From the NCBI RefSeq assembly GCF_028752835.1, contig NZ_CP087952.1, positions 248,001-312,000 on the forward strand: 64,000 nucleotides of DNA. Reading direction: 5' to 3'. This DNA comes from Desulfosarcina sp. BuS5 (GTDB lineage: Bacteria; Desulfobacterota; Desulfobacteria; Desulfobacterales; BuS5). Positions 8,562-50,892 of the stretch are shown in pieces (positions within the stretch are counted from its first letter, which is position 1; each line of letters opens with the position of its first letter). A program made the position numbers and the translations under genes. The notes beneath the pieces are model-generated. The model made no database searches, was not told where the DNA came from, and worked only from the letters and a program-made list of their open reading frames with translations.

Positions 8562-8648
8562 ACAATCTATAGATTGTCATATAAATAATTTCACTGCGTT
8601 ATCGGTCGTCGTAGTATTACAGTACGCCCTCCTTCCTTGTTTCCTGCA
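8562..8648 (+). repeat. dispersed ~105-bp intergenic repeat, copy 1 (truncated)
   Basis: Begins ACAATCTATAGATTGTCAT and continues through TTTCACTGCGTTATCGGTCG and GTATTACAGTACGCC. The distal end is missing compared with the copies at 32455 and 33308, which are in the same orientation. Confidence 0.8.
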
Positions 8649-21699: not shown

Positions 21700-22476
21700 T
21701 TACTCCAGGCCTCTGTAGCCATGCTGGAATTTTTTGTCATAAAGTTTGGATTTGTACTTTAACTGGTCAAGGCTTACGTTAAGTGCTTTGCCGACAATGA
21801 TTAAGGCTTGATGAGTTATTTTTTTTTCTTTTACAATCCGGGCAAGATCTTTCACCTGGGTGCAAAATATTTTTTCTTCCGGCTGGCTGACCCTGAAAGC
21901 GACTGCGCAGGCGCATTCCCCGCCATAAGTTTTTTCTAAAATTTCAGAGACTTTATCGATCATGGTAATGCTGAGATAGATTACCATGGATGCTTGATGG
22001 GTTGCCAGTTTGGCTAAAGCCTCGGCTTCCGGCACCGGAGTTCTGCCTTCCATACGTGTTAGAATCAGAGTTTGTGAAATTTCCGGCAGGGTATATTCTA
22101 TGCCCATGGATGCGGCTGCCGCAAAGGCGGCCGTAACTCCGGGTATAACAATATAATCGATAGATTTTTTTTTCAATTCCGCCATCTGTTCAAAAATGGC
22201 TCCATAAAGGCTGGGGTCTCCGGTATGCAGGCGCACAACATTTTTCCCATCTAAATAATATTTTTTAATCTCTTCTATTATTTCAGCAAGATGCATTGAG
22301 GCGCTGCTTAAAATTTTTACTCCCTTGGTAGTCCATGTTAACAGGCTTTCCGGAACAAGCGAGCCTGCATAAATAACCAGATCGGCATTCATAAGAGCGC
22401 GCTGTCCTTTAACAGTAATCAATTCAGGATCTCCCGGCCCGGCACCGACAAAAATTACAGGATTGGTTTTTGGCAT
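21700..22476 (-). CDS. cbiF: cobalt-precorrin-4 C11-methyltransferase
   Basis: This SAM-dependent tetrapyrrole methylase acts on the C11 position in corrin ring synthesis. The 258-residue protein begins PVIFVGAGPGDPELITVKG, the family's first SAM loop. It continues with YAGSLVPE, HTGDPSLYGAI and VIPGVTAAFAAAASMG, which is characteristic of CbiF/CobM. It is the last gene of the riboswitch-controlled corrin operon and directly follows cbiET. Confidence 0.93.
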   Translation of the reverse strand: MPKTNPVIFVGAGPGDPELITVKGQRALMNADLVIYAGSLVPESLLTWTTKGVKILSSASMHLAEIIEEIKKYYLDGKNVVRLHTGDPSLYGAIFEQMAELKKKSIDYIVIPGVTAAFAAAASMGIEYTLPEISQTLILTRMEGRTPVPEAEALAKLATHQASMVIYLSITMIDKVSEILEKTYGGECACAVAFRVSQPEEKIFCTQVKDLARIVKEKKITHQALIIVGKALNVSLDQLKYKSKLYDKKFQHGYRGLE

Positions 22477-25165: not shown

Positions 25166-25882
25166 CTATTTTGTATTTTTGGTAAGAATGAGAGTCCAGT
25201 ATTCCGGTGGCTTTTTTTCCAGCGTTCTTACATCTTCAATAACCTCTTCGTCGGGTAATCCGCAGCTTGTTATTGCAATGCTGTTTTCCGTCATCCCGGT
25301 TTCATCCAGGGCAGAGACTATATCTTTAACTTTTTTATAGGCTTTTAATATAGCAACATTTTCCGCTTTACCGGCGAACTGTCTCAAGCGGTCGCCGCCG
25401 TTGGCGCCGGAAAGCAGCAGAAGAGACTCTTCGCCTTCCACCAGCGGTCTGTTCAGGCGTGATGCCGCGGCCTGGAAAGAGGTTATGCCTGGTATGCTGA
25501 CTACATTCAAGTGTGGAGCAAGTCTTTGGGTAGACTGGAGGATATATCCATATGTCGCGTATACCATTGAATCTCCGAGTGTTACAAAAGCCGCATCCTG
25601 CCCTTGTTCCAGCAGGGTAATTATTTTGCGGGCATGCTCATCCCAGGCTTTTTGAGCCACACTTTTATCTTTGGTCATGGGGAAAGGGAGCATTTCGACT
25701 TTTGCTGTATCGGGTATGTGTGATTTTGCAATATTAACTGCCTGGCTATGCTGATTTTTGCTGGAAGCAGCAGCAAAAATTATATCTACTTTTTTTAAAA
25801 TTTTTACGGCTTTTAAGGTTATCATCTCAGGATCGCCCGGGCCGACTCCTATACCGTATAATGTTCCTGTTTTTTTATTCAT
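25166..25882 (-). CDS. cbiL: precorrin-2 C20-methyltransferase
   Basis: This 238-residue tetrapyrrole methylase begins GTLYGIGVGPGDPEMITLKA, with the C20-type GVGPGDPE loop. FVTLGDSMVYATYGYI and GITSFQAAASRL also match CbiL/CobI. It methylates (cobalt-)precorrin-2 at C20, the first committed methylation after cobalt insertion in this pathway. It overlaps the cbiC stop by eight bases. Confidence 0.93.
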   Translation of the reverse strand: MNKKTGTLYGIGVGPGDPEMITLKAVKILKKVDIIFAAASSKNQHSQAVNIAKSHIPDTAKVEMLPFPMTKDKSVAQKAWDEHARKIITLLEQGQDAAFVTLGDSMVYATYGYILQSTQRLAPHLNVVSIPGITSFQAAASRLNRPLVEGEESLLLLSGANGGDRLRQFAGKAENVAILKAYKKVKDIVSALDETGMTENSIAITSCGLPDEEVIEDVRTLEKKPPEYWTLILTKNTK

Positions 25883-26495
25883 GTTCTCCTTTTGCTATAT
25901 TTGCAAGGGCGTTAATTACGCTTGCAGCTATATTTGATCCACCTTTACGCTCGATATTTGTAATGTAAGGATAATCTGTTTCTATAAGCGCAGCCTTTGA
26001 TTCTGCCGCGTTTACAAATCCCACCGGCAGGCCGACAACAAGCGCCGGCGCAGCCTTTCCTGTTTTAATAAGCTCTATAAGGCGCAAAAGCGCAGTCGGA
26101 GCATTTCCTATAACATATATTCCGCCTTCCATATCTGAAACTGCCGCATCGACTGCCGCATGCGCCCTGGTTGTTTTTTTCTCAGCAGCCATTTTTTCAA
26201 CTTCAGCATCGCTGATCAGGCATTTTACCTTTACATTAAAGCCGTTCAGCCTTTTTTTGCTGATACCGGACATGGCCATCGTTGTATCTGTTATGATTGT
26301 TTCCCCATGTTGCATGGCGTTTATACCAGCTTCAATGGCCTGATGGTGAAAGCGGACTGTTTGCATATATTCAAAGTCGGCTGAAGTATGAATCATTCGG
26401 CGGACTATTGGCCATTCTTTTTTCGAAAAATTATGTTCCCCAGCTTCCTCGTCAATTATTTTAAAGCTTAAGGCTTCAATATCAGATGGTTTCAT
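25875..26495 (-). CDS. cbiC: (cobalt-)precorrin-8 methylmutase
   Basis: CbiC moves the C11 methyl group to C12, forming cobyrinic acid. The 206 residues include VRRMIHTSADFEY with the catalytic His, TIITDTTMAMSGI, and VVGLPVGFVNAAESK, which binds substrate. The gene overlaps cbiA by four bases upstream and cbiL by eight bases downstream, so it sits in a translationally coupled block. Confidence 0.95.
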   Translation of the reverse strand: MKPSDIEALSFKIIDEEAGEHNFSKKEWPIVRRMIHTSADFEYMQTVRFHHQAIEAGINAMQHGETIITDTTMAMSGISKKRLNGFNVKVKCLISDAEVEKMAAEKKTTRAHAAVDAAVSDMEGGIYVIGNAPTALLRLIELIKTGKAAPALVVGLPVGFVNAAESKAALIETDYPYITNIERKGGSNIAASVINALANIAKGEHE

Positions 26496-27886
26496 TTTTT
26501 TGTCCTTTTACATTTATTATAAGCCCTGCAAACGTCTGTAAATGTCTTGGCAGTATCCGGACAGGAGCCGAAATGCAGATGGCAATAACTCCCCAGGGTA
26601 TTATTTATCCTGTAACCTTTTAATTTCTTCTCCTGACCGCTTCTGTCGGCGGCCTTATAAATATTGTCTATGTTTATTTCCATCAAAGGGTCATCTGTTT
26701 CGGAGTAATGAAATTCATGCCCTTTTATTTTTTCTCCTGCGCGGCCGATAATAGTATCCTGTGACAATGAAATCTCGCGATACCCCAGGGCTTTTAATTT
26801 TGTAAACATTCTTGTTGTAAAGGGGAGGCAGCCTGACATGCAATATGCATTATCATGATGATCATAAAGTTTGCTGCAAAGATACATAAAACCGCCGCAT
26901 TCTCCGTAAATCGGCATGCCGTTAATACTTTTCTGTCTGACTTGTGCGGCAAGTTCAATATTTTTTGACAACTCTTCTGCGAATAATTCTGGATAACCTC
27001 CTCCAAAGTAAAGGCCGTCCAGGTTATCGGGCAGGCCTTTGTCATTAATGGGAGAGAAAAAAACCAGGTTAGCACCATTTGCCTGAAGCATATCAAGGTT
27101 ATCCTGGTAATAGAAACAAAAGGCATTGTCTCTTGCAACTCCGATGTTAATATATTTTTTTAATATATTCGGAAGCTTTTTATCAAACCCTGAATCTGCC
27201 GGTATATCAGGCAGGATATTGAGCAGATGTTGAATATCTATGCTCTTTTCAATTAAGTCAGCCAATTTTTCTCTATTTTTGTCCGACAGGGGATGGTCAT
27301 TATCAGTAACAAGACCAAGATGCCTTTCAGGTATGGTTATATCTTCATCTCGAATAATGCCGCCCAGACACGGCATATTAACATTATTCTCCAAAGCTTC
27401 GCGCAGATATTCAAGATGCCGTTCACTTCCAATATTATTAAAGATAACCCCGGCAAATGAAAGCTTTTTATCAAATCTTTCAAAACCCTGAACCAGGGCC
27501 GCGGCACTTCCGGCCATGCTTTTGGCGTTGACCACCAGGATCACAGGGAGGCCTGTCCACTTGGCCATTTGAGCGGTGGAACCTGCTTCGGTTTTACCGT
27601 CATAACCGTCAAAGAGTCCCATGACCCCTTCCACAATTGCCATGTCTGCATTTGCGCAATGTTTTCCGAAGCATGCAAGGTTATATTCTCTGGGCAGCAT
27701 CCATCCGTCCAGATTCCTGCTTGTTTTACCGGTGATCCTGCCATGGTGCCCCGGATCTATGAAATCAGGCCCTACCTTGAAAGGAGCTACACTTAATCCC
27801 TGCCGGGACAAGGCCGCCATAAGTGCTAAGGTTACGGTTGTTTTTCCGCAGCCACTGCTTGTTCCCGCTATTACAACTCCTTTAAT
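26492..27886 (-). CDS. cbiA: cobyrinate a,c-diamide synthase, apparent ATT start
   Basis: CbiA amidates the a and c side chains of cobyrinate using glutamine and ATP. The ATP-binding N-terminus KGVVIAGTSSGCGKTT is only included if translation begins at ATT 27886, which has a perfect AGGAGG six bases upstream. No ATG, GTG or TTG is available in frame between there and the Met codon at 27820, which would delete the P-loop. The C-terminal class I glutaminase domain has YGECGGFMYL (nucleophile Cys) and KGHEFHYSE. From ATT the protein has 464 residues, normal for CbiA. The start overlaps the transporter-binding-protein gene by 16 bases. Confidence 0.92.
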   Translation of the reverse strand: MKGVVIAGTSSGCGKTTVTLALMAALSRQGLSVAPFKVGPDFIDPGHHGRITGKTSRNLDGWMLPREYNLACFGKHCANADMAIVEGVMGLFDGYDGKTEAGSTAQMAKWTGLPVILVVNAKSMAGSAAALVQGFERFDKKLSFAGVIFNNIGSERHLEYLREALENNVNMPCLGGIIRDEDITIPERHLGLVTDNDHPLSDKNREKLADLIEKSIDIQHLLNILPDIPADSGFDKKLPNILKKYINIGVARDNAFCFYYQDNLDMLQANGANLVFFSPINDKGLPDNLDGLYFGGGYPELFAEELSKNIELAAQVRQKSINGMPIYGECGGFMYLCSKLYDHHDNAYCMSGCLPFTTRMFTKLKALGYREISLSQDTIIGRAGEKIKGHEFHYSETDDPLMEINIDNIYKAADRSGQEKKLKGYRINNTLGSYCHLHFGSCPDTAKTFTDVCRAYNKCKRTKK

Positions 27887-28887
27887 AGTAAACCTCCTGT
27901 TATTATTGCCGCTTCAACATTTTTATTAAAATAATCGGGATATAGTATCCGGCCTATTTCGTAAATTCCGTTAAGGAGTCTTGATGTCGGCCGGCAAACT
28001 ATCATTTCATCAATAATATAGATTTCTCCGTTTTGGACTGCCTTTATCAGGGAGAATCCAGGTTCATTTTTAATCAAGGATAACGAAGGTCTGTTCATTG
28101 TGCCGTATTGCGCCAGGAATACATCGATTTCCGATGCATGGGAGAGTATTTTTTCCTTGCCATATGCGGCAATATTGGTATTGCGTACTTGCTTTGCATC
28201 TTTTGCTATATTTATGCCGCCTGCTTTTTCAAGTGCAAATACAGCCATGGAATTTGAAGAAAACGTTTTCATCCTTTTATGTATGGCTTCAAAATAGACC
28301 CTTTTTTTATTCTTGATCTGTTTTGTTATTACCTCAAATAAAGAAACGCTTTGTTTGAAATGTGCGGTTACCTCTGAGGCCTTTTCTTTTTTTCCTGTTA
28401 AAATGCCTAAGATTTTCCAGTAGAGGAACATCTCCTCTATGGTTGCAGGCTGAATGGAGCAGACGGTGATTCCATTTTGTTCCAGCCTTTGCATTAATTG
28501 AGGATATCCGCGGTCGATCATCGGCCTGACAAGCACCAGGTCGGGCGTTGCCGCCAAAAATTTTTCCGGGCCATCATGATAGGAGAAGACCGGTTTTAAC
28601 AAGGCCTTTTCAGGATATACTTCATTTCTTGCAACTCCGATGATTTCTTCATCAAGACCAAGAGCAAAGAGATTCTCGGTATGCGCGCCATAAAGGGATA
28701 TAATCCGTTTAAAAGGTTTGTTGACAACAATTTTTCTACCGGATTGATCTATTATGGACGGGTCTATTATGGGCTGGTCTATTATTAAAGTATCATTTTT
28801 AATACAAAAAGAAGATGCATAAACTATGCCGTAAGTGTTCAGCCATATCCCTGAAAGCAACAACAAAATATGAAAAACAGTTGACAA
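27871..28887 (-). CDS. B12/iron-complex-type ABC transporter substrate-binding protein
   Basis: This is a periplasmic helical-backbone binding protein (BtuF/FhuD fold). After a signal peptide (STVFHILLLLSGIW onward), the mature part shows SGRKIVVNKPFKRIISLYGA, the TENLFALGLDEEIIGVA segment, and PDLVLVRP. I choose TTG at 28887 as the start because AGGAGG lies just upstream and the ATPase gene ends one base before; the frame extends to 28980 but that part would precede the signal peptide. Context inside the corrin operon suggests import of cobalamin, cobinamide or another cobalt-tetrapyrrole; an iron-siderophore cannot be ruled out. Confidence 0.85.
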   Translation of the reverse strand: MSTVFHILLLLSGIWLNTYGIVYASSFCIKNDTLIIDQPIIDPSIIDQSGRKIVVNKPFKRIISLYGAHTENLFALGLDEEIIGVARNEVYPEKALLKPVFSYHDGPEKFLAATPDLVLVRPMIDRGYPQLMQRLEQNGITVCSIQPATIEEMFLYWKILGILTGKKEKASEVTAHFKQSVSLFEVITKQIKNKKRVYFEAIHKRMKTFSSNSMAVFALEKAGGINIAKDAKQVRNTNIAAYGKEKILSHASEIDVFLAQYGTMNRPSLSLIKNEPGFSLIKAVQNGEIYIIDEMIVCRPTSRLLNGIYEIGRILYPDYFNKNVEAAIITGGLLLKEL

Positions 28888-28888
28888 C

Positions 28889-29662
28889 CTACCTCCTGAA
28901 GACCACCTGCTTTGAATTTGAATAAGAATCCTGATAAACTTTGGCATCAACGCTAAAAACTGATTTGATTGAGTTTTCATTTAAAACCTCGTTGGTTTTG
29001 CCGTAAGCTGCAATACGTCCGTTTTTGATAAAGATCAGGTATTCACAAAAAATTGCTGCAAGATTAACATCCTGCAATACTGTTATCACGGTTTTACCGT
29101 TTTTTTCAACACCCCGCGCGGCCAGGTTCAGCATCCTGATGGAATGATTGATGTCAAAGTTTGAGGTAGCTTCATCCAGAATCAGAACATTAGTATCCTG
29201 GGCCAGTGCTCTTGCAAAGACAACCCTCTGTCTCTCACCTCCGCTCAGTTCGGTAATAAATCTGTTTTTAAACTGGCATGTACCTGTTTTTGTCATTACA
29301 TCGTCAACTATTTTAATATCTTGCGGGGCCGGCGCTGAAAATCTCGGAATATGGGGATATCTTCCCATCAATACTATTTCCCGAGCAGTAAATGAAAAAT
29401 TAATATAAAAATTTTGCGGAACCAGGGCTATTAATCTGGATAATGCTTTTTTTGAGTATTCTGCCAGGTCTTTTCCCATAAAAAAAACAGAGCCTGCCGT
29501 CGGCCTGCTCTGCCTGGACAAAAGATCCAGAAAAGTCGATTTGCCGCAACCGTTAGGACCTATTATTCCGTAAAACCGGCCAGATTCAAGATAGAGTGAA
29601 ACATTATCAATTGCCTTGTTATCTCCGTATGAAAACGATACTTTTTTTATATTAAAACCCAT
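28889..29662 (-). CDS. ABC transporter ATP-binding protein (BtuD/FhuC family)
   Basis: The 257-residue ATPase has Walker A GPNGCGKST, the signature LSGGERQRVVFARALAQ, Walker B VLILDEATSNFD and the switch region. Its closest group by sequence style is the FepC/BtuD family, which pairs with the permease encoded directly upstream. Permease stop and ATPase start overlap closely (ATGAAATG), and the substrate-binding protein follows after one base. Confidence 0.93.
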   Translation of the reverse strand: MGFNIKKVSFSYGDNKAIDNVSLYLESGRFYGIIGPNGCGKSTFLDLLSRQSRPTAGSVFFMGKDLAEYSKKALSRLIALVPQNFYINFSFTAREIVLMGRYPHIPRFSAPAPQDIKIVDDVMTKTGTCQFKNRFITELSGGERQRVVFARALAQDTNVLILDEATSNFDINHSIRMLNLAARGVEKNGKTVITVLQDVNLAAIFCEYLIFIKNGRIAAYGKTNEVLNENSIKSVFSVDAKVYQDSYSNSKQVVFRR

Positions 29663-29663
29663 T

Positions 29664-30746
29664 TCATATTCCGGTTCCGGAGATTTGTCGTTTTTTAAAT
29701 ATGTAGCAGAAAAAAGGACCTCCTATCATAGCCGTGAGAACCCCTATGGGAATCTCTGATGGTAAGACAGCCCTTGTAAGGGTATCCGCACATAAAAGCA
29801 AAATAGCTCCGGCCATCATGGAAACAGGAATAAGTCTCCTGTTGTCGGGCCCGGTCACAGCTCTTGTCATGTGGGGAATCAACAGGCCCACAAAGCCGAT
29901 AATGCCGGAAACAGAAACGCAAACTGCCGCGACAAGAGAGGCCGTTACAAGAAGCACAAGGGTTACCTTTTTTGTGTCCACGCCCAGCGAGGAAGCTGTC
30001 CTGTCACCCAGGGCCATCAGGTTGAGATCTCTGGCAAAAAAAAAGGATACTAAAAAACCTGCGCATACAAACAGCAGGGTCAGTTGTATATCCAGCCATC
30101 CGCTCGACGCAAAGCTCCCCATCAGCCAGAAGATTATAATAGAGACCTGCTCATCAGCCAGATATTTCAAAAAACTGATTCCGGCAGACAATATTGCCGC
30201 AACAATAATTCCGGAAAGGATCAGGTTGTTTGAAGAGAGCCCCGGCCTTGTTGCCGAGCTGTTTGAAGAGGCCAGAAAAATAACAAAAAAAAGGGTCGCA
30301 ATGGCCCCGGCAAAGGCAAAAACAGGCACTGAACAGGAGGAGAGGCCTATCGTAAAAAGATTGATGTTAAACAGGATAGCAATCGAAGCGCCAAAAGCCG
30401 CTCCTGCGGATACTCCCAGGGTGTAAGGGTCTGCCAGGGGATTTAAGAGTATCCCTTGAAATACTGCCCCTGATATGGATAAGCCGGCGCCGACAATGGA
30501 AGCAGTTAAGATTCTCGGCAGACGCACATCAAGAACTATTACCGGGAAAATTTTGTTCATTTCTTCAAGCAAATCCCTGTTTCCGGTAATTTTGGAAGCA
30601 ATAATTTTGAAAACATCTGCAAAGTTTATATTAATATAACCTGATCCGGATGATACAATAATGGCTGTAAACAGAAAAATTCCAAGTAAAAATAAATGGA
30701 CGCCGGTTGAACTTGTGACTGTTTTTCTTAATTTGTTTAAAGTCAT
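29664..30746 (-). CDS. FecCD/BtuC-family ABC transporter permease
   Basis: This is an integral membrane permease with about nine to ten helices. The FecCD signatures ISGAVFQGILLNPLADPYTLGVSAGAAFGA and GFVGLLIPHMTR (quoted in two separated parts of the protein) are clear. ATG at 30746 is preferred; a TTG 18 bases earlier is in frame but has no better ribosome site. It forms a complete B12-type importer with the next two genes. Such importers in sulfate reducers often sit with cbiK and corrin genes. Confidence 0.9.
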   Translation of the reverse strand: MTLNKLRKTVTSSTGVHLFLLGIFLFTAIIVSSGSGYININFADVFKIIASKITGNRDLLEEMNKIFPVIVLDVRLPRILTASIVGAGLSISGAVFQGILLNPLADPYTLGVSAGAAFGASIAILFNINLFTIGLSSCSVPVFAFAGAIATLFFVIFLASSNSSATRPGLSSNNLILSGIIVAAILSAGISFLKYLADEQVSIIIFWLMGSFASSGWLDIQLTLLFVCAGFLVSFFFARDLNLMALGDRTASSLGVDTKKVTLVLLVTASLVAAVCVSVSGIIGFVGLLIPHMTRAVTGPDNRRLIPVSMMAGAILLLCADTLTRAVLPSEIPIGVLTAMIGGPFFCYIFKKRQISGTGI

Positions 30747-30830
30747 TTGTGAATGAACGCTCAATTAAAATAGAAAGAACCGGCAATAGCTCAGTATTCC
30801 GGTTCTATTTGTTAGGGGTTATATTTTGTC

Positions 30831-31715
30831 TTAATGGTTAAAATGTTCCAAAGGCAACTCCAGATGGTCAACCCAGATATCGACAATATTATCGAATTCA
30901 GCCGAACCTTTAAGAACAGGCACACATTTGATCCCGGCTTTAGTTAGAATAGATTTCCATGAATCATCTTCATCACCTGCCATATCGTTTCTGGCATGAT
31001 CGCCAGCGACTGACATAAATGGTATTAAATATGCTTTTTTTATCTTTTTTGCAAGCAGCATCTTTTTTACGTCGTCAATTGTCGGGCTCCCTTCCACTGT
31101 CCCTACAATTATATTCGAGTCACTCTGTTGAAGATTATAGGCCATGGCCGCGTAAAATGCATTGGCCGGGTGCGGAGTGCCGTGTCCCATCAAAACCACT
31201 CCATCTTTCTTTTTTCTCTCCTTGGGGATATTCTGAATAATGGCATCTGCAACTTTTTCCATATCCTCCTGTTTTGATATAAGGGGTTGCCCAACAATAA
31301 TTCTATCAAATCCGCCGGGAATATGTTTGAAGGCCGAGATTGTCGCAATCAGGTCATTATATTCTTCACCCGGGATAGTATGGAGTGACTGTACAGCCAC
31401 ATGCGTAAAATTTTCTTCCATCATTTTTGAAAGGGCTATTGCAATGGAATCGAGATTTTTACCCTGTTTTGCAAGTTTATGGCGTATAATGGAAGATGTA
31501 AATGCCCAGCGCACAGGTATCCCAGGATAGGCGGCTTTGACCTTGTTGTCGATGTTTTTAAAAGATACCTGCGCTTCAGGTATGCTTGATCCAAAGGCTA
31601 CCAGCAGAATTCCTTTTTTCATGGGACGGTTGTCGCCGTGTGCATGCGCCGAGATACAGACAAAGGCAAGGATTACGATAAGAACTGCGGCTTGGATAAT
31701 TCTTTTACTGTTCAT
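30831..31715 (-). CDS. cbiK: secreted sirohydrochlorin cobaltochelatase (CbiK type)
   Basis: CbiK inserts cobalt into sirohydrochlorin at the start of anaerobic corrin synthesis. Residues ~1-26 form a signal peptide (AAVLIVILAFVCISAHAHG). The chelatase fold follows: GILLVAFGSSIPEA, LHTIPGEEY, VLMGHGTPHPAN, and MSVAGDHARNDMAG, which supply the metal-binding histidines. Periplasmic CbiK is known from Desulfovibrio, where it may also serve in metal or heme handling. Here it stands next to a tetrapyrrole-type importer. A cytoplasmic chelatase may be encoded elsewhere. Confidence 0.92.
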   Translation of the reverse strand: MNSKRIIQAAVLIVILAFVCISAHAHGDNRPMKKGILLVAFGSSIPEAQVSFKNIDNKVKAAYPGIPVRWAFTSSIIRHKLAKQGKNLDSIAIALSKMMEENFTHVAVQSLHTIPGEEYNDLIATISAFKHIPGGFDRIIVGQPLISKQEDMEKVADAIIQNIPKERKKKDGVVLMGHGTPHPANAFYAAMAYNLQQSDSNIIVGTVEGSPTIDDVKKMLLAKKIKKAYLIPFMSVAGDHARNDMAGDEDDSWKSILTKAGIKCVPVLKGSAEFDNIVDIWVDHLELPLEHFNH

Positions 31716-32227: not shown

Positions 32228-32268
32228 TAAAAAAAGCCCTTCAAACCATTATACGGCTTGAAGGGCTT
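32228..32268 (-). terminator. intrinsic terminator of the cobalamin riboswitch
   Basis: Read on the minus strand, AAGCCCTTCAAGCC and its partner TTTGAAGGGCTT form a GC-rich hairpin followed by seven T residues. It lies between the aptamer and the first gene, as expected for B12-dependent transcription termination. Confidence 0.88.
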
Positions 32269-32333
32269 TACCCAGTTTATCGGCCCTTTGCTTATCATTT
32301 ATTCTGTTTCACCGCAGAATAAACTATCTATCA

Positions 32334-32598
32334 TTAAAGGCAGGTTTTCTGGCTTTCGGATCATTCTAATCACTGCGCCTTCCCATCCGATTCTAATCAG
32401 ACAGTGGCATATGCAGATTTCGTCCCCGATTACAGCGGCGGGACCACTCTCGCTTCTATAAATTTCCACATAAATAATTTCACTACGTTATCGGTCGTCG
32501 GAGTATTGCAATACGCCTTTCTCCCTCTATCCTTGTGTAATTAATTATCTGAAAATCTATACGAGATTCCCTTTTAAGCTTTATAAAAGCACCTTTAA
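32334..32598 (-). promoter_or_regulatory. cobalamin riboswitch with an inserted repeat
   Basis: Minus-strand aptamer landmarks in order: outer P1 strand TTAAAGG (32598-32592), AAAAGGGAATCTCG, then after ~110 bases of repeat, CGAGAGTGGTCCCGCCGCTG, GCCACTG (the B12 box), GGGAAGGCGCAGTGAT, CCGAAAGCCAGAAAACCTGC and the closing P1 strand CCTTTAA (32340-32334). P1 pairs perfectly across the insertion, and TCTCG pairs with CGAGA, so the insertion lies in the hairpin that normally carries the GGTG loop (P4/L4 region). The switch should repress the downstream corrin and transport genes when B12 is plentiful, if the altered aptamer still works. Confidence 0.9.
32455..32561 (+). repeat. dispersed ~105-bp repeat, copy 3, inside the riboswitch
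   Basis: It starts TATAAATTTCCACATAAATA and ends TTATCTGAAAATCTATA, nearly full length. It differs from copy 4 at 33308 at only about eight positions. TA lies at both outer edges, which would fit insertion at a TA target, but this is only suggestive. Confidence 0.88.
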
Positions 32599-32615
32599 TT
32601 AACTTTATGTTTGAT

Positions 32616-33307: not shown

Positions 33308-33413
33308 TATAAATTTCCACATAAATAATTTCACTGCGTTATCGGTCGTCGGAGTATTACAATACGCCTTCCTCCCTCTGGCCTTGTGCAATTAATTATC
33401 TAAAAATTTATAG
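33308..33413 (+). repeat. dispersed ~105-bp repeat, copy 4, between the HPr-domain gene and ispD
   Basis: This is the best full-length copy: TATAAATTTCCACATAAATA ... GTATTACAATAC ... CTAAAAATTTATAG. It fills almost the whole gap, touching the stop codon of the upstream gene and lying three bases before the ispD start. Confidence 0.88.
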
Positions 33414-48008: not shown

Positions 48009-48082
48009 GTAGGGGCACGATGCATCGTGCCCTATGAAGGTTTTTTGGCGATAACGCAGTGAAATTTATGTGGAAATCTATA
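48009..48082. repeat. composite repeat: GCACGATGCATCGTGC palindrome plus dispersed-repeat end
   Basis: GTAGGGGCACGATGCATCGT and its mirror occupy 48009-48035. CGATAACGCAGTGAAATTTA followed by TGTGGAAATCTATA at 48049-48082 is one end of the dispersed repeat in reverse orientation. The repeat end overlaps the stop codon of the GGDEF gene (TAG at 48080-48078). Confidence 0.75.
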
Positions 48083-50767: not shown

Positions 50768-50892
50768 CTATAGATTGTCAGATAATTACCCGATTTGAAA
50801 ATTTGTCACAAGGCTATGGGGCGGAAGGAGTATCGTAACACTCCGATGATTGATAATGCAGTGAAATTATTGATTTATGTGATAATCTATAG
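50768..50892 (-). repeat. dispersed repeat, copy 5, with a longer core
   Basis: It runs from CTATAGATTGTCAGATAATT through CACAAGGCTATGGGGCGGAAGG and ATGCAGTGAAATTATTGATT to AATCTATAGG. Orientation is opposite to copies 3 and 4, and the length is about 125 bases. It occupies the gap between the TIM-barrel gene and the kinase gene. Confidence 0.8.

Follow-up and report, generated by a model that had tools for sequence, protein, structure and literature searches.

Architecture of the locus

The window, the whole 64,000-nucleotide stretch analysed here (Desulfosarcina sp. BuS5, contig NZ_CP087952.1, positions 248,001 to 312,000), carries on its minus strand a cobalamin riboswitch whose peripheral loop L4 contains a 105-bp palindromic repeat (Table 1). 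Upstream of the riboswitch is ispD, and downstream is orf87, followed by cobalamin-related genes as expected of the family, namely those for CbiK, a BtuC-type permease, CbiA and CbiC. Between positions 21700 and 25882 are more genes that, judged by reading, resemble cobalamin-synthesis genes. Homologues of orf87 occur in 8 of 57 searched loci, five of them outside the genus; nearly all of the 57 were preselected for a riboswitch or for the repeat, so the link between orf87 and riboswitches is not an independent one.

The covariance model RF00174 matches the riboswitch over its full length, scoring 99.0 bits where the gathering score is 31.5 (E = 1.6e-23), which places it within the sequence family, and the genome has nine such riboswitches in total, this one included. 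Run across the insertion, the model gives a complete match and assigns the entire extra stretch to L4, between intact P4 strands. The pairing of the P1 strands and of TCTCG with CGAGA, and the intactness of the core motifs, all claimed in a preliminary description of this DNA made from its letters, hold in the sequence and in the covariance alignment, with the TCTCG and CGAGA segments forming P4. The 3′ part of the conserved core coincides with what we take to be the B12-box region. Also confirmed is the intact terminator of that description (minus strand, 32269 to 32233), which provides the expression platform of a cobalamin riboswitch. The CCCGC stretch of L5 is complementary, as read from the sequence, to the loop of the downstream hairpin, a putative P13 for L5–L13 pairing, and AAAGGGCC is a possible antiterminator strand.

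Table 1 Features of the riboswitch locus (window coordinates)
Feature	Position	Strand	Basis or remarks
Cobalamin riboswitch aptamer with insertion	32322–32611	−	RF00174, 99.0 bits, model positions 1–189 complete
P1, 5′ strand	32592–32598	−	Sequence and alignment
P4, 5′ strand (UCUCG)	32562–32566	−	Covariance alignment; predicted pairing with 32448–32452
Dispersed palindromic repeat in L4, 105 bp, TATA at both ends	32457–32561	−	Sequence, copies, covariance model
GAAG, 3′ remnant of L4	32453–32456	−	Fold (predicted 4-nt bulge between P4 and repeat helix) and orthologue comparison
P4, 3′ strand (CGAGA)	32448–32452	−	Covariance alignment
L5 region including CCCGC stretch	32437–32443	−	Covariance alignment
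Conserved core, 3′ part	32340–32353	−	Covariance alignment
P1, 3′ strand	32334–32340	−	Sequence and alignment
Downstream hairpin with GCGG in loop	32298–32323	−	Sequence; near-identical in L112, L113 and L108
AAAGGGCC, possible antiterminator strand	32282–32289	−	Complementary to terminator 5′ arm, read from sequence
Intrinsic terminator	32233–32269	−	17-pair stem with T tail, inverted repeat
orf87, first gene past the riboswitch, 87 aa	31890–32153	−	No Pfam or NCBIfam match; homologues exist
CbiK, cobalt chelatase	30831–31715	−	PF06180, 246 bits
BtuCDF-type transporter (permease, ATPase, binding protein)	27871–30764	−	PF01032, PF00005, PF01497
Cobyrinic acid a,c-diamide synthase (CbiA/CobB)	26492–27820	−	NF002204, above cut-off
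CbiC, precorrin-8X methylmutase	25875–26495	−	PF02570

The inserted repeat

The identification of the insert as a dispersed repeat is borne out by at least 144 genomic copies found with a 34-base pattern allowing up to three mismatches (the pattern written backwards, as a control, finds none) and at least 147 found with a covariance model, the latter number being a lower bound as 150 of 3160 candidates were scored. The element is thus present throughout the genome and not at this locus alone. The main size classes among the 147 copies are 105 nt (47 copies) and 128 nt (33 copies); TATA stands at the start of 122 and at the end of 128. Being short and multi-copy, with terminal inverted repeats (in the 105-bp form, whose arms pair in the consensus), the family resembles a miniature inverted-repeat transposable element (MITE). 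The two arms covary, 0.889 of positions 5–12 being paired over 69 distinct arm pairs against 0.799 (s.d. 0.010) after re-partnering, a value attained in 0 of 2,000 trials, although related copies enter as separate pairs and 0/2,000 is not a clean probability.

The family is modular in this genome, with at least four sequence types of the central hairpin and at least two types of arm. Other full or partial copies in the window lie at 33308–33412, ending beside the start of ispD, and at 8568–8637, 50769–50891 and 48049–48082.

The repeat core is present in 6 of 40 genomes including the window's own, with 9 and 39 matches in two genomes of the same genus (G001 and G002), 4 in one of the same family (G003) and 2 each in G018 and G039. 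Exact matches in named records comprise 13 stretches, all from Desulfobacterales or deltaproteobacterial metagenome assemblies; the 33-base core is nowhere matched exactly in viral contigs, and comparison of the insert with Rfam yields no family at E values up to 5. PF13358 (DDE_3), the one transposase family searched for, has no match in the genome, and a DDE_3 transposase is accordingly rejected as the partner of the element.

Insertion into a constant loop

Orthologous leaders with an uninterrupted 7-nt L4 are found in both same-genus genomes: at L112 and L113 of G002, where the gene order is ispD–riboswitch–orf87, and at L108 of G001, where the riboswitch precedes orf87. Because these orthologous switches are uninterrupted, the insertion in the window copy is derived, and the empty sites support the preliminary description's view of the insert as an insertion. 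That description had further held that relatives with an uninterrupted aptamer, together with constitutive expression in this strain, would mean a broken switch; the first half of this pair is what G001 and G002 display. The insert itself, put at about 107 bp in that description, is present, with a repeat of 105 bp and a net gain of 102 nt, the distance from GGGAA to CTGT being 140 in the window against the usual 38. This gain is one less than a 105-bp unit plus a TA duplication would give, so that a one-base loss or another history is possible. In the G001 leader P2 has an extra hairpin of its own, about 35 nt long, and a further 44 nt or so lie between aptamer and platform.

In all 47 other distinct riboswitch cores surveyed, L4 is 7 nt long, its first position being U and its fifth A; the second is G or U, and the fourth A or G. 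The survey covered 58 loci with a fixed-spacing pattern, itself unable to detect a long L4, and a 48th core, a chance match within the window's insert, was excluded. No core was obtained at three of the 58 loci, of which L123 shows a normal L4 in the covariance alignment, L097 has a match 191 nt long and L117 is cut off. With a wider pattern, permitting up to 180 nt between the motifs, a long L4 appears in the window only, and the other long matches start at an upstream GGGAA.

According to a review (PMC10907184), L4 and L6 organise the four-way junction of cobalamin riboswitches by a T-loop interaction. The preliminary description's picture of L4 as a docking loop agrees with this and with the placement of the insert by the covariance model. 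Given the constancy of L4 in 47 of 47 other cores, what the insert interrupts is a tertiary contact that is otherwise constant. A contiguous 7-nt L4 with U1, R4 and A5 is absent from the window, where the repeat interrupts it, and the RNA is therefore not filed here as a working aptamer of the L4–L6 T-loop docking architecture.

Predicted fold and sequence constraint

The 290-nt RNA has a minimum-energy structure in which the repeat helix continues P4 and GAAG is bulged out. Folded alone, the transcribed strand of the repeat reaches −30.3 kcal/mol (z = −5.30), and the opposite strand −14.6 (z = −1.25). The mean probability of 41 standard aptamer pairs is 0.616 with the insert and 0.619 without it, whereas shuffled inserts lower it to 0.469 (s.d. 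0.060; 1 of 200 attains the real value) and the reversed insert to 0.316; since P3 (0.13–0.14) and several P6-side pairs (about 0) have low probabilities in the uninterrupted RNA as well, this comparison addresses interference and not the tertiary fold. The repeat is predicted to fold on its own with the aptamer helices unchanged, and on these models an insulated fold is quite probable. The extended hairpin envisaged in the preliminary description corresponds to this predicted extension of P4, seen in the minimum-energy fold and in the pair probabilities.

Changes specific to the window lineage number 0 in 123 gap-free columns of the 3′ aptamer, 2 in 50 columns of the 5′ aptamer and 3 in 79 from the aptamer to the end of the terminator. 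At four-fold sites, 21 of 171 are changed in BtuC and 0 of 29 in orf87, the latter meaning that the local rate could be low. At 7 of its 105 positions the repeat copy in the riboswitch departs from its nearest relatives, and its terminal branch is 0.061 long against a median of 0.021 for 55 copies, a length that may include the divergence of an unsampled source copy. The low rate of change in the riboswitch core fits continued selection after the insertion but falls short of proof, because the insertion could be recent and the divergence of the repeat could date from before its move; nor does a conserved RNA core prove ligand-dependent switching.

Inserts in other cobalamin riboswitches

A second riboswitch of the genome, C1:511847–512131 (L007:1501–1785), has an internal copy of the repeat, located at model position 151 and running the opposite way. 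This copy occupies a P6-side peripheral loop, and a porin-like gene lies downstream. A leader in G039 that resembles its orthologue (L079) is without the copy. Here the mean pair probability is 0.521 with the copy, 0.525 without it and 0.504 with it reversed, and shuffled copies give 0.459 (s.d. 0.049) with 9 of 100 attaining the real value, so the case for insulation is weaker than for the riboswitch in the window.

Across 40 genomes there are 146 RF00174 matches above the cut-off, 12 of them at least 240 nt long; the position of the insert was seen for nine of these 12, and only that of the window is in L4. Five of the other long inserts (L119, L122, L120, L121 and L115) were searched for dispersal. 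The insert L119:2444–2586 of G006 is a distinct, clearly dispersed 143-bp palindrome in a riboswitch loop, with 28 further matches covering at least 98 of its 143 bases, and that of L122 (G014) is likewise a clearly dispersed repeat (83 matches, both strands counted). Repeats of the L120 insert (G021) are only partial, and the inserts of L121 (G039) and L115 (G002) are single-copy. Other genomes of the order thus have palindromes of their own in peripheral loops of cobalamin riboswitches, dispersed ones that differ from the window's being found in two other families. Like the insert in the window, those of L119, L120 and L122 are palindromes placed in loops of RF00174 matches that are otherwise intact, and two of the three are clearly dispersed, but all three occupy the P6-side peripheral loop (model positions ~119–125) rather than L4. 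In L121 a near-perfect 76-nt palindrome (682–757) stands at the riboswitch position of the C1:511847–512131 insert; being single-copy, it argues against the view that every such arm arose purely from mobile elements.

A copy of the repeat with variant arms overlaps the 3′ end of a third aptamer match in the genome (C1:2827109–2827314) and is possibly part of that riboswitch's expression platform. In G002 (L116) a variant-arm copy lies at the same site as in C1:2827109–2827410 (L192).

Origin and effect of the insertion

A palindromic repeat has been inserted in L4 of a genuine cobalamin riboswitch lying ahead of a cobalamin-synthesis operon. The explanation we favour, to which we give a probability of about 60%, is that a non-autonomous, MITE-like 105-bp palindrome entered the 7-nt L4 in the lineage of this genome. 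Once transcribed, the element would pair with itself to form a long, self-contained extension of P4, joined through the bulge of the leftover GAAG, which would leave the terminator, the downstream hairpin and the remaining aptamer helices free to form. The switch would keep its response to cobalamin, probably with weaker L4–L6 docking and an altered sensitivity. Taken by itself, this last step is finely balanced, cobalamin control being about as likely kept as lost.

The chief rival, to which we assign a considerable probability short of even, is that the insertion broke the switch: without L4–L6 docking the junction would be unorganised, the antiterminator would win and the operon would be constitutive, the core being conserved since the insertion is young. 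Such an outcome accords with the constancy of the interrupted loop in 47 of 47 other distinct cores, with the role of the T-loop contact in organising the junction (PMC10907184) and with the lack of the insertion in both same-genus genomes, and the eight other riboswitches of the genome could maintain control of other genes. Against it stand the unchanged predicted helices and the 0 of 123 lineage-specific changes in the 3′ aptamer despite a repeat copy that differs at 7 of 105 positions. Alternatively, the palindrome may have been recruited, the long P4 arm contributing, for example, slower folding or transcription pausing, a site for an RNase or protein, or an altered sensitivity. The orientation dependence of the fold model (0.616 against 0.316 reversed) and the retention in a second species of a copy just downstream of another cobalamin riboswitch lean that way, but the L4 insertion is in no orthologue, there is no positive sign of a new role, and the internal copy of the second riboswitch has the opposite orientation; we regard recruitment as improbable.

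That the element seeks hairpin loops or riboswitches is very improbable, even though copies lie inside two of the nine cobalamin riboswitches and a third is overlapped at its 3′ end by a copy. The flanks of 124 copies pair no more than re-partnered ones (mean 7.57 against 7.43, s.d. 0.26; 63 of 200 permutations attain the observed value), and hairpin-seeking insertion is rejected on this ground. Were the 147 copies confined to the ~11–12% of the genome that is non-coding, a share estimated roughly from the window's long open reading frames only, 0.49–0.53 riboswitch hits would be expected, and the probability of two or more would be 0.087–0.099 (0.002 if copies were uniform over the whole genome); two hits in nine riboswitches do not exceed chance given that share, which leaves riboswitch targeting unsupported. 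An assembly error fusing repeat to riboswitch is conceivable where a repeat is so abundant, yet both flanks match the uninterrupted G002 leader and its ispD-to-orf87 order, and the ends of the insert are the exact ends of the repeat, inside a loop, which makes such an error the least credible of these readings.

With MITE-like insertion and an insulated P4 extension as the preferred reading, the locus offers an experiment of nature in which an insertion meets a constant tertiary contact, and the near-identical uninterrupted orthologues are controls for L4–L6 docking. It also suggests a possible route to large peripheral riboswitch arms, as a rightly oriented palindrome folds on itself and the core need not be disturbed. 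A bolder version, which we hold only tentatively, is that the switch works with its T-loop rebuilt across the 100-nt mobile hairpin, and that cobalamin riboswitches of this order have repeatedly drawn new peripheral arms from dispersed palindromes.

Comparison with known repeats

Insertion of repeats into structured RNA is a known kind of event. Searches of the open-access literature turned up no account of a riboswitch aptamer with a repeat inside it. Bacterial MITEs, as portrayed in the accessible text of a review (PMC10969869), share with the window repeat a short length, multiple copies, terminal inverted repeats and transcripts forming stable stem-loops; the window element differs in that no related transposase was found, one Pfam family having been tested. 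The same text raises the general possibility of MITEs forming riboswitches, and riboswitch interruption is not among the cases described there.

The nearest precedents are the palindromic elements of Rickettsia (PMC2229807) and a pneumococcal BOX element between T-box riboswitches (PMC3049150). The Rickettsia elements, found in tmRNA and RNase P (M1) RNA genes, are likewise palindromes, of ~105–146 bp, in structured RNA genes and possibly neutral; their hosts are non-regulatory RNAs, whereas the host in the window is a ligand-sensing aptamer interrupted at a tertiary-contact loop. The BOX element, in the trp leader, is like the window repeat an independently folding repeat in a riboswitch-controlled leader, one whose regulation was apparently kept, but it sits between two riboswitches, whereas the window repeat lies within the hairpin loop of a single aptamer.
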